NCBI GenBank assembly: GCA_020726325.1
Contig: DYST01000003.1
Coordinates: 1-50,304 of the forward strand
From: Thiomicrospira cyclica
GTDB taxonomy: Bacteria; Pseudomonadota; Gammaproteobacteria; Thiomicrospirales; Thiomicrospiraceae
Direction: 5' to 3'
DNA length: 50,304 bases
Shown here: one piece after another, positions 3,553 to 16,894 of the stretch
Position numbering within the stretch: position 1 is the stretch's first letter
Layout: the number at the start of each line of letters is the position of its first letter
The notes under the pieces: generated by a model
Told to the model about the DNA's origin: nothing
What the model saw: only the letters and a program-made list of their open reading frames with translations
The model's database searches: none
Translations under genes and position numbers: made by a program

Positions 3553-5820
3553 TTACAACTTAACACAGTCCACAGAATAACGCTTACTACCATCTGGCAT
3601 CTCTTCAACCGTTAGACCATGCACATCCGTGTTAAAACCTGGGAACTTCTCATTAAAGACACGCGCAAACTTGAGATAGTCTACAATGATTTTATTAAAA
3701 CGCTCACCTGGGATCAGTAGCGGAATACCCGGTGGGTAAGGCGTGACCAAGCTTGCAGTAATACGTCCCTCTAATTCATCAATCACGACACGTTCAATTT
3801 TACGATGGGTCATCATTGCAAAAGCATCCGCTGGCTTCATGGCTGCTTCCATTTCCGATAAGTACATATCTGTCGTTAAATGCGCGACATCATACTGTGC
3901 ATAGAAGCTATGGAATTGTTTACACAAATCGCGTAAGCCCACTTTTTCGTAGCGTGGATTTTTGGTAATAAATTCGGGTAAGACACGCCATAAGGGTTGG
4001 TTCTTATCAAAGTCATCTTTAAATTGCTGCAATGCAGCCATTAGGGTATTCCAGCGACCTTTGGTGATGCCGATGGTAAACATGATAAAGAAGCTGTACA
4101 AACCACATTTTTCGACGATAACACCATGCTCTGCTAAGTATTTAGTCACAATTGCAGCAGGAATACCCCACTCATCAAAATCCCCATCGACATCTAAACC
4201 GGGGGTAATAATGGTTGCTTTAATCGGGTCAAGCATATTGAAGCCATCGGCAAGATTGCCGAAACCATGCCAGCGATCGTTGGGCTTGAGTACCCAAGAA
4301 TCACGATCTTCGACGCCTTCTTGATTGCTGACATCGGGTCCCCATACTTTGAACCACCAAGAGTCGCCGTATTCTTCATCGACTTTCGCCATGGCATGAC
4401 GGAAGTTAATCGACTCTGAAATCGATTCTTCAACCAATGCCGTGCCACCTGGGGCTTCCATCATTGCTGCTGCCACATCGCAGCTGGCAATAATGGCATA
4501 CTGTGGACTGGTCGAGCTGTGCATTAAGTAAGCTTCATTGAATACTTGCAAATCAAGCTGGGTGTTTTCGGCGTTTTGTACCAAAATTTGCGAGGCTTGC
4601 GACAAACCAGCAAGTAACTTATGGGTTGATTGTGTGGCAAATACCATCGACTTTTCGGTACGTGTACCATCGCGCGAAATGGCGTGCATGCCTTTATAGA
4701 AGTCATGGAAAGTCGCGTGTGGTAGCCACGCTTCATCGAAATGCAAGGTATCAACCCAGCCATCCAAGCGTTCTTTAATCATGCCTGTATTGTAGAGAAC
4801 GCCATCGTAGGTGCTTTGGGTGATGGTCAAAATGCGCGGATCAGTTCCCAAGGTGCTGGCAATCGGATGTGCCGCAATTTTAGCCTTGATGGTATCGCGT
4901 TCGAACTCGCTGAGTGGAATTGGTCCAATAATGCCATAATGGTTACGGGTTGGTGTTAAAAATACAGGAATCGCACCTGTCATGGTAATGGCGTGCAGAA
5001 TCGACTTATGGCAGTTGCGGTCAACAATGACGATGTCGTTGTCGGCAACGCACGAGTGCCAGACCATTTTATTCGATGTCGATGTGCCATTGGTGACAAA
5101 GAACAGGTGATCGGCACTGAAAATACGCGCAGCGTTACGTTCCGATGCCGCAACAGGACCTGTGTGGTCGAGCAACTGTCCTAGCTCGTCTACCGCATTA
5201 CATACATCGGCACGTAATAGGTTTTCGCCAAAGAATTGGTGAAACATTTGCCCGACAGGTGATTTAAGAAATGCCACCCCGCCCGAATGTCCTGGGCAAT
5301 GCCACGAGTAAGAACCATCGGCAGCATAGTGCGTCAATGCACGAAAGAAAGGCGGTGCAAGACTGTCTAAGTAAGCCTTAGCTTCGCGGATGATGTAACG
5401 CGCTACAAATTCTGGCGTATCCTCAAACATATGAATAAAGCCGTTTAACTCACGCAAAATGTCATTCGGGATATGACGTGCAGTACGGGTTTCACCGTGT
5501 AAGAAAATCGGGATTTCAGCATTGCGCCAGCGGATTTCTTCAACAAAGGCGCGTAAATTCTTAATCGCTTGCGGCTCATTATTGCTACCGTCTGCATTTT
5601 GCGCAGTCGCTGTCATTTCCTCGTCATCAATCGCCAAGATAAAGGCACAAGCTCGACTTTGCTGCTGGGCAAAGGTCGATAAGTCGCCATAGCTGGTGAC
5701 ACCTAGCACTTCGATGTTTTCGGCTTGAATGGCATCGGCTAGAGCACGAATACCCAAACCAGAAGTGTTTTCAGAACGAAAGTCTTCGTCGATAATGACA
5801 ACAGGGAAACGAAAGCGCAT
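3553..5820 (-). CDS. PLP-dependent arginine/lysine/ornithine decarboxylase (AdiA-like)
   Basis: This is a fold-type I decarboxylase of the large Orn/Lys/Arg group, removing CO2 from a basic amino acid to make agmatine, cadaverine or putrescine. It has an N-terminal response-regulator-like wing domain (about 1-130), a PLP domain with SYSWHCPGHSGG, DRNCHKS and the PLP lysine in STHKLLAGLSQAS (Lys401), and a C-terminal domain with YPPGIPLLIPGE. Its 755 residues equal E. coli AdiA and exceed LdcI (715) and SpeF (732), so arginine is the best guess; substrate is not proven. The start at 5820 has AAGGA nine bases upstream. It may serve acid resistance or polyamine supply. Confidence 0.9.
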   Translation of the reverse strand: MRFRFPVVIIDEDFRSENTSGLGIRALADAIQAENIEVLGVTSYGDLSTFAQQQSRACAFILAIDDEEMTATAQNADGSNNEPQAIKNLRAFVEEIRWRNAEIPIFLHGETRTARHIPNDILRELNGFIHMFEDTPEFVARYIIREAKAYLDSLAPPFFRALTHYAADGSYSWHCPGHSGGVAFLKSPVGQMFHQFFGENLLRADVCNAVDELGQLLDHTGPVAASERNAARIFSADHLFFVTNGTSTSNKMVWHSCVADNDIVIVDRNCHKSILHAITMTGAIPVFLTPTRNHYGIIGPIPLSEFERDTIKAKIAAHPIASTLGTDPRILTITQSTYDGVLYNTGMIKERLDGWVDTLHFDEAWLPHATFHDFYKGMHAISRDGTRTEKSMVFATQSTHKLLAGLSQASQILVQNAENTQLDLQVFNEAYLMHSSTSPQYAIIASCDVAAAMMEAPGGTALVEESISESINFRHAMAKVDEEYGDSWWFKVWGPDVSNQEGVEDRDSWVLKPNDRWHGFGNLADGFNMLDPIKATIITPGLDVDGDFDEWGIPAAIVTKYLAEHGVIVEKCGLYSFFIMFTIGITKGRWNTLMAALQQFKDDFDKNQPLWRVLPEFITKNPRYEKVGLRDLCKQFHSFYAQYDVAHLTTDMYLSEMEAAMKPADAFAMMTHRKIERVVIDELEGRITASLVTPYPPGIPLLIPGERFNKIIVDYLKFARVFNEKFPGFNTDVHGLTVEEMPDGSKRYSVDCVKL

Positions 5821-6420: not shown

Positions 6421-9027
6421 ATGACACGTTGGCTCAGTTTGATTCTGCTTTTGATGTTAGAAGTCATGATTATCAGCTTGTTATTCTTTAATCAAGAGCA
6501 AAAGGAAGAGCAGGAGCTGGGACGCGCGCTCGATTCGGTACGTATTTCATACCAAGCAGCATTACAAGTACAAGATACCGCAATGTACTCTGCTTTACAG
6601 GAAGTTATCTTGCGTCAGGATATTTTAGCGGCCTTTGCTGCTGGTGTCTGGAGTAATGATGCTGAAGAGCAAGATGGGTTCCGTAAAAAGTTGTATAACT
6701 TGCTTTATCCTACTTATCAGCGTCTTCTTGATGGAAATATGACGCAGTTTGCTTTTCATACTTTAGATGGACACAATTATTTACGCTTTCAACAGCCCGA
6801 CAAATACGGTGATATGCTTGGTGCTATTCGTCCGTTGCTCGCACAAGTGATTGATACCAATCAAGCTACTAAAGGATTTGAATTGGGAATTTTTGGTGGT
6901 GCTTTTCGTTTTATTTATCCCTTATCGCTTAACGGCCAACGTTTAGGTGTTGTCGAGGCAGGTTCATCTTTTGCTGCATTAGGAAAAACCATGCTAACGC
7001 TAACGCCGCACTATGAATATACCTTTATTATGCGACGTGATGTCATTAAAAATATGGTTAATCTTTCACAAACGGTGTACGAACCAACGCTCATTCATAA
7101 TTACTTTATTACTGAGTCATCTAGGGCATTGCCAGCAGCACTACAGCGTCCATTGTCTGCTGATTTTATTGCTCTAGAAGAACAATTAAAAAATGATGAC
7201 GATGTGCAAAAGGAAATGTTATCAGGACAAGCGATTTCGCGTTATTTATTAACCAATGGTCGTTGGTATAGCGTGAACTTACTACCAGTAAATGATGTTA
7301 ATCAAAAACATATTGGTTATGTGGTAGCCATAACCATTGCTAATGAGATTGCGCACATTCAAAATGAATTTTGGATAAGTGCCTTCGTTAGCAGCATTTT
7401 TATGTTTGTTTTAGGGTTATTGCTATGGCGTGCGCAACGTGAAGCCAAGCTACGTGGTGAGCAGCAGAAGCGGATGCAAATTATTACAGATACCGTTGGT
7501 GATGGTTTATATGTCGTCAATGAACTTGGCGAAATTATCTTTATCAATCCCGCTGCCTTGCAGTTGCTCGGCTATACATCCGAACAACAGGTTATGGGAC
7601 AAAAAGCTGCGTCTCTATTTTATGTTAATGCTGAGGGCGGACGCGGCATAGATCCGCTAGCCTGTCCAATTTGCCGCGTTTTCAAAACAGGCATCCCTTT
7701 CCGTGGCGATTTTAAGTTTATGCGAGTAGATGATACGCAATTTGACATTGAGATTGTCAGCCAGCCTGTTATTCAAGGTCAAAGCGTTACTGGCTTGGCA
7801 ATGCTTTTTAGAGATGTAACATCACGCAATGCAATACAAACAGAAATTATTGCTGCGCGTGAATTAGCAGAGCAGGCGAGCGCGTCAAAAAGTGCTTTCC
7901 TCGCGAATATGAGTCATGAAATTCGTACCCCCATGAATGGGGTATTGGGAATGACGGCGTTATTACAAGAAACACCACTCAATGAAGAGCAAAAAGACTA
8001 TGTGCAAACCATTCGTAGTAGTGGTGATGCCTTGCTTACCGTTATTGATGATATTTTAGACTATTCTAAAATTGAAGCGGGCATGATGACCATTGAGTCT
8101 GCCCCCTTGGATATTCGAGCCTTATTTAAGGACATACAACGACTGATGCACTGGCGCGTCGAGCAAAAAGGATTGCGTTTGTCTTTACGTATTACCGATG
8201 CCGTGCCGCATATTGTGCTGGGTGATTCGGTGCGTGTACGCCAAGTGTTGCTCAATTTAATTGGTAATGCTATTAAGTTTACCGATCAGGGCGGCATCGA
8301 AGTTGTTGCTTTATTACCCTATCATTCGGGCGACTCTTTCAAAATACGTGTGGAAGTGAAGGATACGGGTATTGGTATCGCTGAAGATAAAATTAACCGC
8401 TTATTCAAATCCTTTAGCCAAGTTGATGATTCGACCACGCGACGTTTTGGTGGTACGGGATTAGGCTTGTCGATTAGTAAGCGTTTGGCAGAGTTGATGC
8501 ATGGTGAAATTGGTGCAACCAGTATTGAAGGTAAAGGGTCGGTATTTTGGTTTAGCTTTATGGTACGTGCCGCAGGCAATGAAACACTTAAAGAAACAGA
8601 AACGCTCAGTAGTAGTATCCAAGAATTGCCACCAGCGCGTTTACTTTTGGTTGAGGATAATCTTGTTAATCAAAAGGTAGCAATGGCAATGCTGAGTAAA
8701 CTGGGGTACAAACCAGATATTGCCAACAATGGCAAAGAAGCACTTGAGTTGCTCAGAGAACATGATTATGACCTTGTATTTATGGATTGCCAAATGCCTG
8801 TTATGGATGGTTTTGATACCACGCGCGCTATTCGAGCTGGTTTTGGTGGACGTAATGCACAAATCACGGTTGTGGCATTAACTGCTAATGCGATGAAAGA
8901 AGATCAGGACGCTTGCTATGCGTCGGGAATGACTGACTATTTATCGAAGCCACTACAAATGCCAGCACTGGTCGCCATACTTAAAAAACATCTGGTGGTA
9001 GAGCCCTTGCCAACGTCAGAATCGTGA
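6421..9027 (+). CDS. Membrane hybrid sensor histidine kinase (Cache-like, PAS, HisKA, HATPase, REC)
   Basis: The 868-aa protein senses an unknown periplasmic signal. In order: TM1 (about 4-24), an extracytoplasmic domain of about 290 residues that looks Cache-like, TM2 (about 317-337), a PAS domain (about 352-470), a HisKA domain with FLANMSHEIRTPMNG (His499), an HATPase with the N box NLIGNAIKF and the G boxes DTGIGI and GGTGLGLSI, and a receiver domain with phospho-acceptor Asp789 in FMDCQMPVMDG and a late lysine in SKPL. There is no Hpt domain and no response regulator nearby, so the phosphorelay partner lies elsewhere. AAGGAA precedes the start. The 3' end overlaps the convergent comF by 47 nt. 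Confidence 0.93.
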   Translation: MTRWLSLILLLMLEVMIISLLFFNQEQKEEQELGRALDSVRISYQAALQVQDTAMYSALQEVILRQDILAAFAAGVWSNDAEEQDGFRKKLYNLLYPTYQRLLDGNMTQFAFHTLDGHNYLRFQQPDKYGDMLGAIRPLLAQVIDTNQATKGFELGIFGGAFRFIYPLSLNGQRLGVVEAGSSFAALGKTMLTLTPHYEYTFIMRRDVIKNMVNLSQTVYEPTLIHNYFITESSRALPAALQRPLSADFIALEEQLKNDDDVQKEMLSGQAISRYLLTNGRWYSVNLLPVNDVNQKHIGYVVAITIANEIAHIQNEFWISAFVSSIFMFVLGLLLWRAQREAKLRGEQQKRMQIITDTVGDGLYVVNELGEIIFINPAALQLLGYTSEQQVMGQKAASLFYVNAEGGRGIDPLACPICRVFKTGIPFRGDFKFMRVDDTQFDIEIVSQPVIQGQSVTGLAMLFRDVTSRNAIQTEIIAARELAEQASASKSAFLANMSHEIRTPMNGVLGMTALLQETPLNEEQKDYVQTIRSSGDALLTVIDDILDYSKIEAGMMTIESAPLDIRALFKDIQRLMHWRVEQKGLRLSLRITDAVPHIVLGDSVRVRQVLLNLIGNAIKFTDQGGIEVVALLPYHSGDSFKIRVEVKDTGIGIAEDKINRLFKSFSQVDDSTTRRFGGTGLGLSISKRLAELMHGEIGATSIEGKGSVFWFSFMVRAAGNETLKETETLSSSIQELPPARLLLVEDNLVNQKVAMAMLSKLGYKPDIANNGKEALELLREHDYDLVFMDCQMPVMDGFDTTRAIRAGFGGRNAQITVVALTANAMKEDQDACYASGMTDYLSKPLQMPALVAILKKHLVVEPLPTSES

Positions 9028-10762: not shown

Positions 10763-12169
10763 ATGAAACTCACTTCAATTGAAATTGTTAATTTTCGTAA
10801 ATTTGAGAAATTAACTTGTCCTCTGCATCCTAATTTAACCGTACTGACTGCTGAAAATGGTGGTGGTAAAACAACGTTATTAGATGCTATTCGTATTGCA
10901 TTGTGGCCCTTTGTGAAGGGTTTTGATCTTGGTAGTCAGGCAGGAAAGTCGGCTACTATTACTATCAACGATGTTAGACAACAGTTAAAAGGCACTGGTA
11001 ACATGGAAGTACAACTTCCTAGTGGCGTTATAGTGAAAGAAATGTGGCTAAAGCCTGATGAAGAAATACTTGTTGAACGAGTTAGAGTGAAAAAAAATAC
11101 AGGAAACTTACTTAATAATCATGCTAATGCCTTGACGAAACGGGCTAAAAAGCTGCAACAGCAAGTAAGAGATGGGATTGATAGCGTTGATTTGCCTTTA
11201 ATTAGCTATCTTGGCACGTCTCGTGTATGGTATCAGGGTCGGAATACGATTCAAGAAAAAGAATTGATTTTGAATGCTAACGACTTTTCTAGAACCTCTG
11301 CCTATTTAAATTGTTTAGCTTACAGCGCAAGTTATAAAACATTTGCTATATGGTATACCCATATTTATCAAAGTTATCGTGAATCAATGGACTTAGTGCA
11401 AGAGAAAATAGGGATGGGTTTAGCAGGAACAGTCGTTTTGGATTCATTAGGGCAAACGTTTCAAAATGCGATTCATGTGATTCAATCGAGTGTTGATTAT
11501 GTTATTAAGCCCGTAACTGGGTGGCATAAAATCGAGTATAGCGTCAGACATCAAAAGCAATTAGTCATGTCTCATGATGAACACGGCGTAATGCCAGTTG
11601 ATATGCTCAGCGATGGCTTGCGGAATGCCATTGCGTTGGTGGCAGACATCGCTTTTAGAGCTTATAAACTGAATCCGCACTTTGGTAGAGAGGCTGCTAA
11701 AAAAACATCGGGCATCGTCATGATTGATGAGGTGGATATGTTTTTGCATCCAAAGTGGCAGCAAACCATTCTTCCATCATTGCAAGAAGCTTTTCCAGAA
11801 ATTCAGTTTATTGTCACGACGCATAGCCCTCAGGTGTTAAGTACGGTAAAAAGTGAAAATATTCGTGTTATTCAAGATGGCACAGTTTTTAGTGCGCCAC
11901 AGGGCAGCGAGGGCGCAGAATCTAAACGTCTGTTGGAGCGGGTTTTTGGTACCAAGTCTCGACCTAAAAATAATGCTTGGACAAATAACTTAAAAAATTA
12001 TCGTGATTATGTTTATAACGATAAGTGGGTTAATGGTTGGTCGGATGAAATGCTACGCTTGAAAAGTGAATTACATAAGCATTTTGGCAGTGAAGATCCT
12101 GAGTTAACGGAATTGGATTTGTATCTTGAAAACCGAGAGTGGGAGTTAAGTCTTGAAAAAGATAAATAA
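10763..12169 (+). CDS. ABC-type/AAA ATPase of a Septu-like defence module (PtuA-like)
   Basis: This 468-aa ATPase has the SMC/RecF-like layout: N-terminal IEIVNFRKFEKL, Walker A AENGGGKTT (Lys36), an ABC signature-like MLSDGLRNAIAL, Walker B IVMIDEVDMFLHPKW (Asp322, Glu323) and the switch His in VTTHSPQVL (His354). There is no TOPRIM domain, so it is not an OLD nuclease. With the HNH protein that overlaps its 3' end, it matches Septu, in which PtuA and PtuB form an ATP-controlled anti-phage nuclease complex. No retron reverse transcriptase is present. The gene looks A+T-richer than its neighbours: 21 G+C in 11281-11340 against 32 in 13081-13140 (bioF). Weak AAAGG upstream. Confidence 0.82.
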   Translation: MKLTSIEIVNFRKFEKLTCPLHPNLTVLTAENGGGKTTLLDAIRIALWPFVKGFDLGSQAGKSATITINDVRQQLKGTGNMEVQLPSGVIVKEMWLKPDEEILVERVRVKKNTGNLLNNHANALTKRAKKLQQQVRDGIDSVDLPLISYLGTSRVWYQGRNTIQEKELILNANDFSRTSAYLNCLAYSASYKTFAIWYTHIYQSYRESMDLVQEKIGMGLAGTVVLDSLGQTFQNAIHVIQSSVDYVIKPVTGWHKIEYSVRHQKQLVMSHDEHGVMPVDMLSDGLRNAIALVADIAFRAYKLNPHFGREAAKKTSGIVMIDEVDMFLHPKWQQTILPSLQEAFPEIQFIVTTHSPQVLSTVKSENIRVIQDGTVFSAPQGSEGAESKRLLERVFGTKSRPKNNAWTNNLKNYRDYVYNDKWVNGWSDEMLRLKSELHKHFGSEDPELTELDLYLENREWELSLEKDK

Positions 12170-12926
12170 AACTCAAGGTCAAGATAAATTAACGCCTTAT
12201 GCCCTCGTTAATCAGATGAATAGCTGGAAAAGTTTTAAAGGCAATAAGCCTGATGATGCGCGTGCTGATAAAAATCTTATGTTGCAAGATCAAGAAGGTT
12301 TGTGTGCTTATTGTGAGGCTAACATCGGCGATTTAGACCCTTATCAGCAATCAGTCGAGCACTTTCATGATAAATCGGACGATTCTAATCTATTGAATCA
12401 TAATTGGGGGCTAGACTGGCAAAATGTGTTTGCTGTTTGCAAAGGGGGAGAGACAGAGGGCGCAACCTACCCCACGCCTGATAATTTAAGTTGTGATAGA
12501 CACAAAGAGTATAGAAAGGATATTCCAGCTGCGTGTGAGGGTTATTTGCTCAATCCGCTCGATATAATCGCAAGTCCTGCTCTGTTTGAGTTTAATAAAG
12601 CAACGCTTCATTTGAAGCCTAATCTAGTAGCTTGTCAATCATTTACACCAATCCATAATCACCATTCAACTGTTGAAGAGCTAGTTCAAAACACAATCGA
12701 TATTTTGAATTTGAATTGTCAACGCTTAATTGATAGTAGACAGCAAGTATTAAACGCTTACAATAAAGAAATCGAAAAAATGCGACTTGTTAATAATCAA
12801 AATGGTCCTGCTCAGCTTGCACAGCACTGGTTTGGTAACAAGTGGCCTAGCTTTTTCACGACAAGACGCAGCTTATTAGGACAGCATGCAGAAGATTATT
12901 TACAAATAATTCAATACAATGGATAA
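12153..12926 (+). CDS. HNH endonuclease of a Septu-like defence module (PtuB-like, TIGR02646 type)
   Basis: The 257-aa protein shows the TIGR02646/PtuB pattern: LCAYCE (Cys51, Cys54), the HNH core VEHFHDKS (His70, His72), the WQNVFAVCKGG segment and NLSCDRHKEY, probably a zinc-supported HNH fold that cuts DNA. It starts at TTG 12153, with GGGAG at 12141-12145 seven bases before, and overlaps the ATPase gene by 17 nt, so the two are co-translated. Its stop overlaps the bioF start by 8 nt, which ties bioF translation to the defence gene. The phage target and trigger are unknown. Confidence 0.85.
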   Translation: MKKINKTQGQDKLTPYALVNQMNSWKSFKGNKPDDARADKNLMLQDQEGLCAYCEANIGDLDPYQQSVEHFHDKSDDSNLLNHNWGLDWQNVFAVCKGGETEGATYPTPDNLSCDRHKEYRKDIPAACEGYLLNPLDIIASPALFEFNKATLHLKPNLVACQSFTPIHNHHSTVEELVQNTIDILNLNCQRLIDSRQQVLNAYNKEIEKMRLVNNQNGPAQLAQHWFGNKWPSFFTTRRSLLGQHAEDYLQIIQYNG

Positions 12927-15797: not shown

Positions 15798-15851
15798 CAA
15801 TCTGAGTTCGACATGAAAATAGCGTTAACATAATGATGAAAAAGCGTAACC

Positions 15852-15962
15852 ATGAGTCTACTACTATCTCGTTCCATCTTAAAAAATACTTTGCCTTACG
15901 AGGCGTTAGAACCTTATAATAAAAATCTTAAACACAAAATACGGAAGGAAACGCACAAGTGA
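15852..15962 (+). CDS. Possible 36-aa leader ORF of an unknown gene chain
   Basis: The frame runs from ATG 15852 to TGA 15960-15962, giving a basic 36-residue peptide (ending NKNLKHKIRKETHK). Its stop overlaps the GTG start of the next ORF in a GTGA arrangement. The ribosome-binding site is weak, and an alternative 28-codon frame starting at ATGATG (15832) covers the same region, so coding status is uncertain. It lies 54 nt after bioC on the same strand and may be read from the biotin operon. I do not recognise it. Confidence 0.25.
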   Translation: MSLLLSRSILKNTLPYEALEPYNKNLKHKIRKETHK

Positions 15963-16135
15963 ATAGCGACGTACTTCGCAATGATGCTGTTTTTATAGCT
16001 ATTTTTGGTGAGAATGGCTTAATAGACATGGATGATAAAGCCTTCGCAGAATATCTCAAACCCAAAAATAATGACTTAAAAATTGAATCATTAGATTGGG
16101 ACTGGGCAAAAAAACAAGTTGGCATCACTGCATAA
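15959..16135 (+). CDS. Uncharacterised 58-aa acidic protein
   Basis: GTG 15959 is preceded by AAGGAA (15945-15950, eight bases), and the frame runs 58 codons to TAA (16133-16135). The product contains AVFIAIFGENGLIDMDDKAF and ends DWDWAKKQVGITA; it is acidic and soluble. Its TAA overlaps the ATG of the 185-aa ORF (TAATG), so the two are almost certainly co-translated. A small acidic protein ahead of a larger partner resembles toxin-antitoxin or defence gene pairs, but no family is recognised and this is only a layout argument. Confidence 0.55.
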   Translation: MNSDVLRNDAVFIAIFGENGLIDMDDKAFAEYLKPKNNDLKIESLDWDWAKKQVGITA

Positions 16136-16692
16136 TGCGATTCCCTGACGATCTAATCGAGATTCTTGAGAAAAAATTCCTAGGATTTGATGCTGACTTT
16201 TCTGGTAACTGGAAAGAGATTCTTAAACAAGAATACGCATGGCATAAGATCAAAATTAAGACTGATATGGGTATTATCCATTCTGATGACGATCGCATGG
16301 ATCGGCATAAGGTTGCAGCAGCTATAACGCTATCGATTCTAACAGCGGAGCCGTTAGTAAACTGCACAGAATCTAAAAAACCTGTTGATCGATTGTCTAA
16401 TGAGTTTTTTGCGCTTTATGGCGCAATGATTGTCATGGTTTTATTTATGCGAAAAGATGGGCTTTTACAAACCCATCTTAGTCTTGAACAAGCTATCGCA
16501 AACCTGCTCAAGGTTAGTACAACGAACCATCTAGGTACTTACCCAGAGCAACTGCTGAAAGCATTCCGTGAAACGATCGACTTAAAGCATGCACACACAA
16601 TTTCGTACAAACCATTTGCTCACATTTACTTTCTGCTTGAAGTGCATCATCAATGCCGCTCATCGCTGAAAGCAACGCCAGAGAACGGATAA
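16135..16692 (+). CDS. Uncharacterised 185-aa protein
   Basis: The start ATG 16135 overlaps the stop of the 58-aa ORF; an in-frame upstream codon at 16096 would bury it in that ORF and is less likely. The product has no signal peptide or clear membrane span and looks largely helical. Segments to note are DDDRMDRHKVAAAITLSIL, FFALYGAMIVMVLFM and a C-terminal FAHIYFLLEVHHQC. The HK dyad and conserved-looking His residues could be functional, but I cannot assign a family. The gene is convergent with rpoH across a 202-nt gap in which I see no clear terminator. Confidence 0.6.
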   Translation: MRFPDDLIEILEKKFLGFDADFSGNWKEILKQEYAWHKIKIKTDMGIIHSDDDRMDRHKVAAAITLSILTAEPLVNCTESKKPVDRLSNEFFALYGAMIVMVLFMRKDGLLQTHLSLEQAIANLLKVSTTNHLGTYPEQLLKAFRETIDLKHAHTISYKPFAHIYFLLEVHHQCRSSLKATPENG

Positions 16693-16894
16693 GACTCAAC
16701 TGATCAAATTAGCTACAATTTGGATGATAAATCCTGTAGTCAAAAACACCAAACCAATCCATATGTATCTATTACCTTTGTGTAACCATCTTTAGTATTC
16801 CTCCTTCTCTACTGGGAAGCGATAGCATACGTTATTTTCAAGTCGTATTCAATCGTATTATCAGGCTAATGGTTGACCCGCGCCCCAATGCCCA

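Follow-up and report, generated by a model that had tools for sequence, protein, structure and literature searches.

The window, a stretch of 50,304 nucleotides from Thiomicrospira cyclica, carries a lineage-specific insertion between the convergent genes bioC and rpoH, which contains a promoter-like site and a two-gene unit. The two genes encode a 58-aa acidic protein and a 185-aa all-helical protein. Such pairs are now known from Methylococcaceae, other Pseudomonadota, Spirochaetota and Fibrobacterota, that is from at least three phyla, while none of the libraries searched contains the family. With a confidence barely above even, we read the pair as an undescribed type II-like toxin–antitoxin (or abortive) module in which the 58-aa protein would be the antidote and the 185-aa protein the effector. 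Should this reading hold, the family would be a new one within a known kind.

Gene organisation between bioC and rpoH

The initial annotation had described a chain of three frames linked by two stop/start overlaps, and all three frames and both overlaps are found where it had placed them. The features of the region are as follows.

15800–15802, no strand: possible 3-bp target duplication ATC, left
15803–15825, + strand: left arm of an imperfect terminal inverted repeat, TGAGTTCGACATGAAAATAGCGT, 19 of 23 positions complementary to 16829–16851
15852–15962: 36-aa frame, basic (pI 10)
15891–15920, + strand: sigma-70-like promoter of the pair, TTGCCT-18-TATAAT, 10 of 12 consensus positions with a perfect −10 hexamer (consensus match)
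15943–15949, + strand: ribosome-binding site GGAAGGA of the 58-aa gene, read from the sequence, 9 nt before the GTG
15959–16135, + strand: gene 1, 58-aa acidic protein with GTG start, putative antitoxin (profile match, E 3e-7)
16135–16692, + strand: gene 2, 185-aa all-helical protein, putative toxin (27-member alignment; model)
16829–16851, − strand: right arm of the imperfect terminal inverted repeat
16852–16854, no strand: possible 3-bp target duplication ATC, right

The 36-aa and 58-aa frames overlap in a GTGA at 15959–15962, and the TAA stop of the 58-aa frame shares one base with the ATG of the 185-aa frame (TAATG, 16133–16137). The 58-aa protein has a pI of 4.4 and is preceded by a good ribosome-binding site, in agreement with the earlier description. 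The 36-aa peptide does not survive as a gene. The best promoter-like site of the region falls within its frame, its product is basic, and it has no family match in the library profiles. Since this frame is unsupported, the chain consists of two genes and not three. Judged by sequence comparison, the 58-aa and 185-aa frames are real genes.

The promoter was called from its agreement with the consensus alone, and sites of this kind are about as numerous in the region as expected by chance (six, against a shuffle mean of 4.3). Transcription of the pair from the biotin operon is possible, despite its own promoter-like site. No intrinsic terminator is found near the pair. A search of the region for an RNA element gave no match in Rfam and only short, two-copy repeats.

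The pair arrived by a recent insertion

The gap between bioC and rpoH is 1097 bp in the window. Three congeners have the two genes convergent as well, at a distance of about 15–65 bp and with no such pair between them. The extra DNA of about 1.05 kb (15803–16851) is bracketed by 23-nt inverted repeats. The absence from the congeners and the repeats together identify it as an insertion, bounded by terminal inverted repeats as a transposon- or MITE-like element would be. The 19 of 23 match between the arms is reached by none of 400 shuffles and by none of about 410 stretches of the same length in the window. The same triplet ATC is found directly outside both arms, although three bases alone are weak evidence of a target-site duplication. 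Several IS families would be compatible with TG...CA ends and a short duplication. No other copy of the arms is present in the genome (81% complete), neither a further copy of the element nor a parent IS sharing its ends is found in the genome, the congeners or plasmids, and six other loci of the family show no inverted repeats with these ends. With no other copy or parent element found, we do not assign the element to a named family.

There is a minority possibility that the repeats are coincidental and that the pair came by homologous or illegitimate recombination, which would concern its route of arrival and not its function. The arms are imperfect, unique in the incomplete genome and absent at the other loci examined, and plasmids contain nothing that matches the ends of the element; but both arms sit at the insertion edges, and the controls given above never reach their complementarity.

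The biotin operon upstream has itself been interrupted. A Septu PtuA–PtuB pair (PADLOC E 1e-143 for PtuA and 7e-88 for PtuB) lies between bioB and bioF at 10763–12926 on the + strand, 3 kb upstream of our pair, so that the neighbouring operon is indeed defence-bearing, as had been noted. In the three congeners bioB-bioF-bioH-bioC run uninterrupted, with no Septu. Type I Septu is thus another recent insertion in the same operon, and two separate accessory modules have gathered in and just behind it. The Septu proteins are unrelated to the pair, which has no ATPase or HNH domain.

Relatives and their distribution

Nothing was found when single sequences were searched against viral and genome contigs, plasmids, phages and 369 genomes of the class. 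The family was revealed only by a back-translated degenerate DNA pattern for MDRHK[IV]AAA, a stretch chosen as a lead, and its hits were afterwards verified by alignment and profile. Five hits were obtained in a genome collection of 257 billion bases. Translation identifies three of them as true relatives, from Methylococcaceae (L004), Treponema (L003) and Fibrimonadales (L006), and the other two (L005 and L007) as chance frames. Chance also accounts for three hits of a wider pattern in viral contigs. Further members were found with profiles built stepwise.

At the Methylococcaceae locus the pair recurs in unchanged order, a 56-aa ORF followed by a 188-aa protein. Its small protein is 35% identical to the 58-aa protein of the window over 49 aa (blastp E 2.6e-12), and its large protein is 33–35% identical to the 185-aa protein. 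In the class of the Fibrimonadales contig, 13 of 126 genomes match at E <= 0.01, with up to 8 matches per genome; these copies are scattered, and truncated or degraded ones are found among them. At one locus (L062) the large gene is degraded and the small gene intact. Of 247 genomes sampled from the phylum of the Treponema contig, 12 have the family. For the window's own phylum the figure is 8 of 349 sampled genomes, namely the genome of the window and seven from outside its class. Among 58 genomes of the window's family, a single-sequence search finds the pair in this genome only, one 35-residue match (E 0.0095) being taken as chance, and a 27-row profile finds no other member in the genomes of the genus and family that it was run against. 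The distribution is mobile, patchy and often multi-copy, as in type II toxin–antitoxin systems.

The small protein and its pairing with the large one

The window's 58-aa protein carries the family motif F-x-x-Y-L-x-x-x-N-x-D-x-x-I-x-x-L-x-W, and the homologous small partners share N-x-[DE]-x-x-[IV]-x-x-[VLI]-x-[FWI] towards the C-terminus. Its profile match has an E value of 3e-7, while the best of 2000 shuffles gives 0.21 and no other frame of the window matches the small-protein profile. No recognisable DNA-binding domain is found in it.

A small ORF is found in the partner position of all 51 intact large ORFs. In 36 of the 51 cases it is homologous to the window-type small protein by profile, while the remaining 15 partners are diverged or of another type; by sequence, the partner position of the first copy at L061, and perhaps that of L080, seems to contain only an unrelated ORF. 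An ORF of such size and position also precedes 52 of 198 control ORFs. Thus it is the homology of the partner, and not its mere presence, that carries weight. The gaps in the 36 homologous pairs mostly range from −14 to +35 nt. The unit is accordingly an operon of two genes, a small one and its larger neighbour, whose frames are coupled or overlap, as in type II systems. The order and spacing of the pair, whose co-occurrence had been called for as a check, are conserved in at least three phyla.

Between near relatives, dN/dS is 0.07–0.11 for the small gene and 0.08–0.26 for the large gene, which indicates that both are under purifying selection in relatives. These ranges cover the computable comparisons, several others being saturated, and there is one outlier, a short small-gene comparison with few substitutions (omega 0.75). 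Both genes thus appear to be translated and conserved as separate proteins, again like type II systems. Furthermore, the distances of the small and large proteins are correlated (Mantel r 0.83, reached in 0 of 2000 permutations). This co-evolution is at most compatible with the gene 1 product binding or neutralising the gene 2 product.

The initial annotation would have been refuted if the two frames were pieces of one broken gene, or if the 58-aa frame were not conserved as a separate protein. The frames overlap and contain no recognised domains, but the chance of a broken gene or a chance ORF is practically nil, refuted by relatives from three phyla in which the small ORF stands apart and carries a motif of its own, by purifying selection and by the matching order of the genes.

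The large protein

In the 27-member alignment Tyr34, Asp56 and His58 are invariant, and Arg57, Lys59, Ala62 and Glu169 are nearly so. An AlphaFold model built from four sequences, namely the proteins of the window and of the pattern-search loci, is all-helical (pLDDT 75, pTM 0.77); a single-sequence model was discarded (pLDDT 42). In the model Tyr34 lies in helix 2, the DRHK segment opens helix 3, and Glu169 is found in the last helix. These conserved polar residues, Tyr34, Asp56/Arg57/His58/Lys59 and Glu169, may form an active site of the large protein, and the signature provides defined residues for mutation.

Neither protein had been recognised in the initial annotation, and the profile and structure searches it had proposed lead to the same result. 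Pfam, NCBIfam, PHROGs and PADLOC hold no family match to either protein, and no enzyme or housekeeping family matches the pair. Foldseek finds no resembling structure in the PDB (best E 1.3), viral structures include none like the model (best E 0.67), and the family profile has no match among PDB sequences. Across the 27 members, PADLOC-DB 2.0 gives nothing beyond isolated weak hits; one of these, PDC-S04 (E 0.003, in one of the 27), is treated as chance. No named toxin or antitoxin family is significantly matched by profile, sequence or fold, and we claim none. Nothing relevant on the motif or on similar systems was found in the open-licence literature.

Functional reading of the pair

We suggest that the 58-aa acidic protein would be made first and that the TAATG overlap would couple translation of the 185-aa protein to it. 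The small protein would bind and silence the large one through its conserved C-terminal segment. The large protein would be the effector, with Tyr34, DRHK and Glu169 as its functional site. Once the small protein is lost, by degradation, phage takeover or loss of the element, the large protein would halt growth.

A toxin–antitoxin or defence-like unit had been proposed at the outset, and it is backed by the anatomy of the pair (a leading small gene, the overlap and a homologous partner in different phyla), its patchy multi-copy occurrence, its recent insertion and the adjacent Septu. Our reading as a toxin–antitoxin-like module follows from the conserved order and spacing, purifying selection, co-evolution, the scattered and degraded copies, patchiness and insertion, together with some toxin–antitoxin, defence or prophage neighbours and the lack of any enzyme or housekeeping match. 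As to these neighbours, one copy (L068) lies about 0.4 kb from a YafQ-family toxin, and close to it are also an XRE regulator and a protein that partially matches a TIR effector; another (L067) has a P22-type portal nearby, indicating a prophage; and the Methylococcaceae pair is followed about 0.5 kb downstream by a PDC-M48B-type metallo-beta-lactamase protein. Neighbours differ at most loci, and many copies lie beside ordinary or housekeeping genes. Against the toxin–antitoxin-like reading stand these many ordinary neighbours, the absence of a known toxin fold in the PDB search, a small protein that lacks the recognisable DNA-binding domain of many type II antitoxins, the membrane protein and membrane-segment partner at L015 and L016, which are unusual for a toxin–antitoxin pair, and a tandem array at L061 in which one intact large ORF (4597–5280) has no recognisable small partner immediately before it.

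It is somewhat unlikely that the two genes form an abortive system dedicated to phage defence instead of a stability-type toxin–antitoxin module. In such a system a phage cue would free the small protein, acting as sensor or inhibitor, and the large protein would be the effector. The Septu in the same operon, absent in the three congeners, the PDC-M48B-type protein and the TIR-like and XRE neighbours speak for it; but the 27 members have no PADLOC match beyond isolated weak hits, the neighbours vary at most loci and are often housekeeping genes, and its mechanism overlaps that of a toxin–antitoxin module.

It is unlikely that the pair is a non-toxic accessory unit (a regulator, an adaptor or membrane-linked signalling), with the large helical protein as a binding protein and the small one as its ligand or anchor. 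Membrane-associated variants in Spirochaetota and the lack of a known toxin fold agree with such a role, and the conserved polar residues could be structural. However, selfish or defence modules would better account for the high number of copies, their patchy occurrence, the recent insertion and the decay of some copies, and there is no stable tie to one pathway.

Returning to the toxin–antitoxin-like reading, the pair resembles YafQ–DinJ and RelBE in being a bicistron with a small acidic first gene and a short overlap, in its multi-copy, patchy and mobile occurrence, and in the copy near a YafQ-family toxin. In contrast to known type II systems, its toxin candidate is mostly 180–230 aa long, all-helical and without sequence or fold similarity to any known toxin, and its small protein has no recognisable DNA-binding domain. 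HEPN toxins (HEPN–MNT) likewise combine an all-helical putative effector with a second gene, whereas here D-R-H-K stands at a helix start in place of the R-x(4-6)-H RNase motif, neither Pfam HEPN nor the PDB gives a match, and the partner is not a nucleotidyltransferase. It is possible, if doubtful, that the 185-aa family is a new helical toxin class with an undescribed Tyr/Asp-Arg-His-Lys/Glu active site and a new short antidote, spread over at least three phyla and here the sole cargo of a small transposon-like element. If active site and fold are truly new, the family would be more than a new toxin–antitoxin family.

Variant copies and neighbouring loci

In the Spirochaetota loci L015 (724–1902) and L016 (1262–2460), the gene 5' of the pair encodes an integral membrane protein, and a membrane segment is found at the N-terminus of the small partner. 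In a genome of the Fibrimonadales class, three family members are found in tandem (L061, 4597–6563, + strand). The second and third have lost DRHK and read GKNE and DDYH instead, and a small ORF precedes the second. Later tandem copies at L023 and L030 have also lost DRHK, their similarity being marginal. At L064 (607–3318, − strand) six similar ORFs stand in tandem directly downstream of a family pair, and the one tested is DUF5618. A strong DNA hairpin with 16-nt arms (6556–6691, fold z-score −5.8) is observed at the Methylococcaceae locus between the pair and the metallo-beta-lactamase gene. In the window itself, a HicA–HicB-like pair (62 aa and 149 aa, by eye) lies at 664–1303 on the + strand, about 8.5 kb before the biotin operon.
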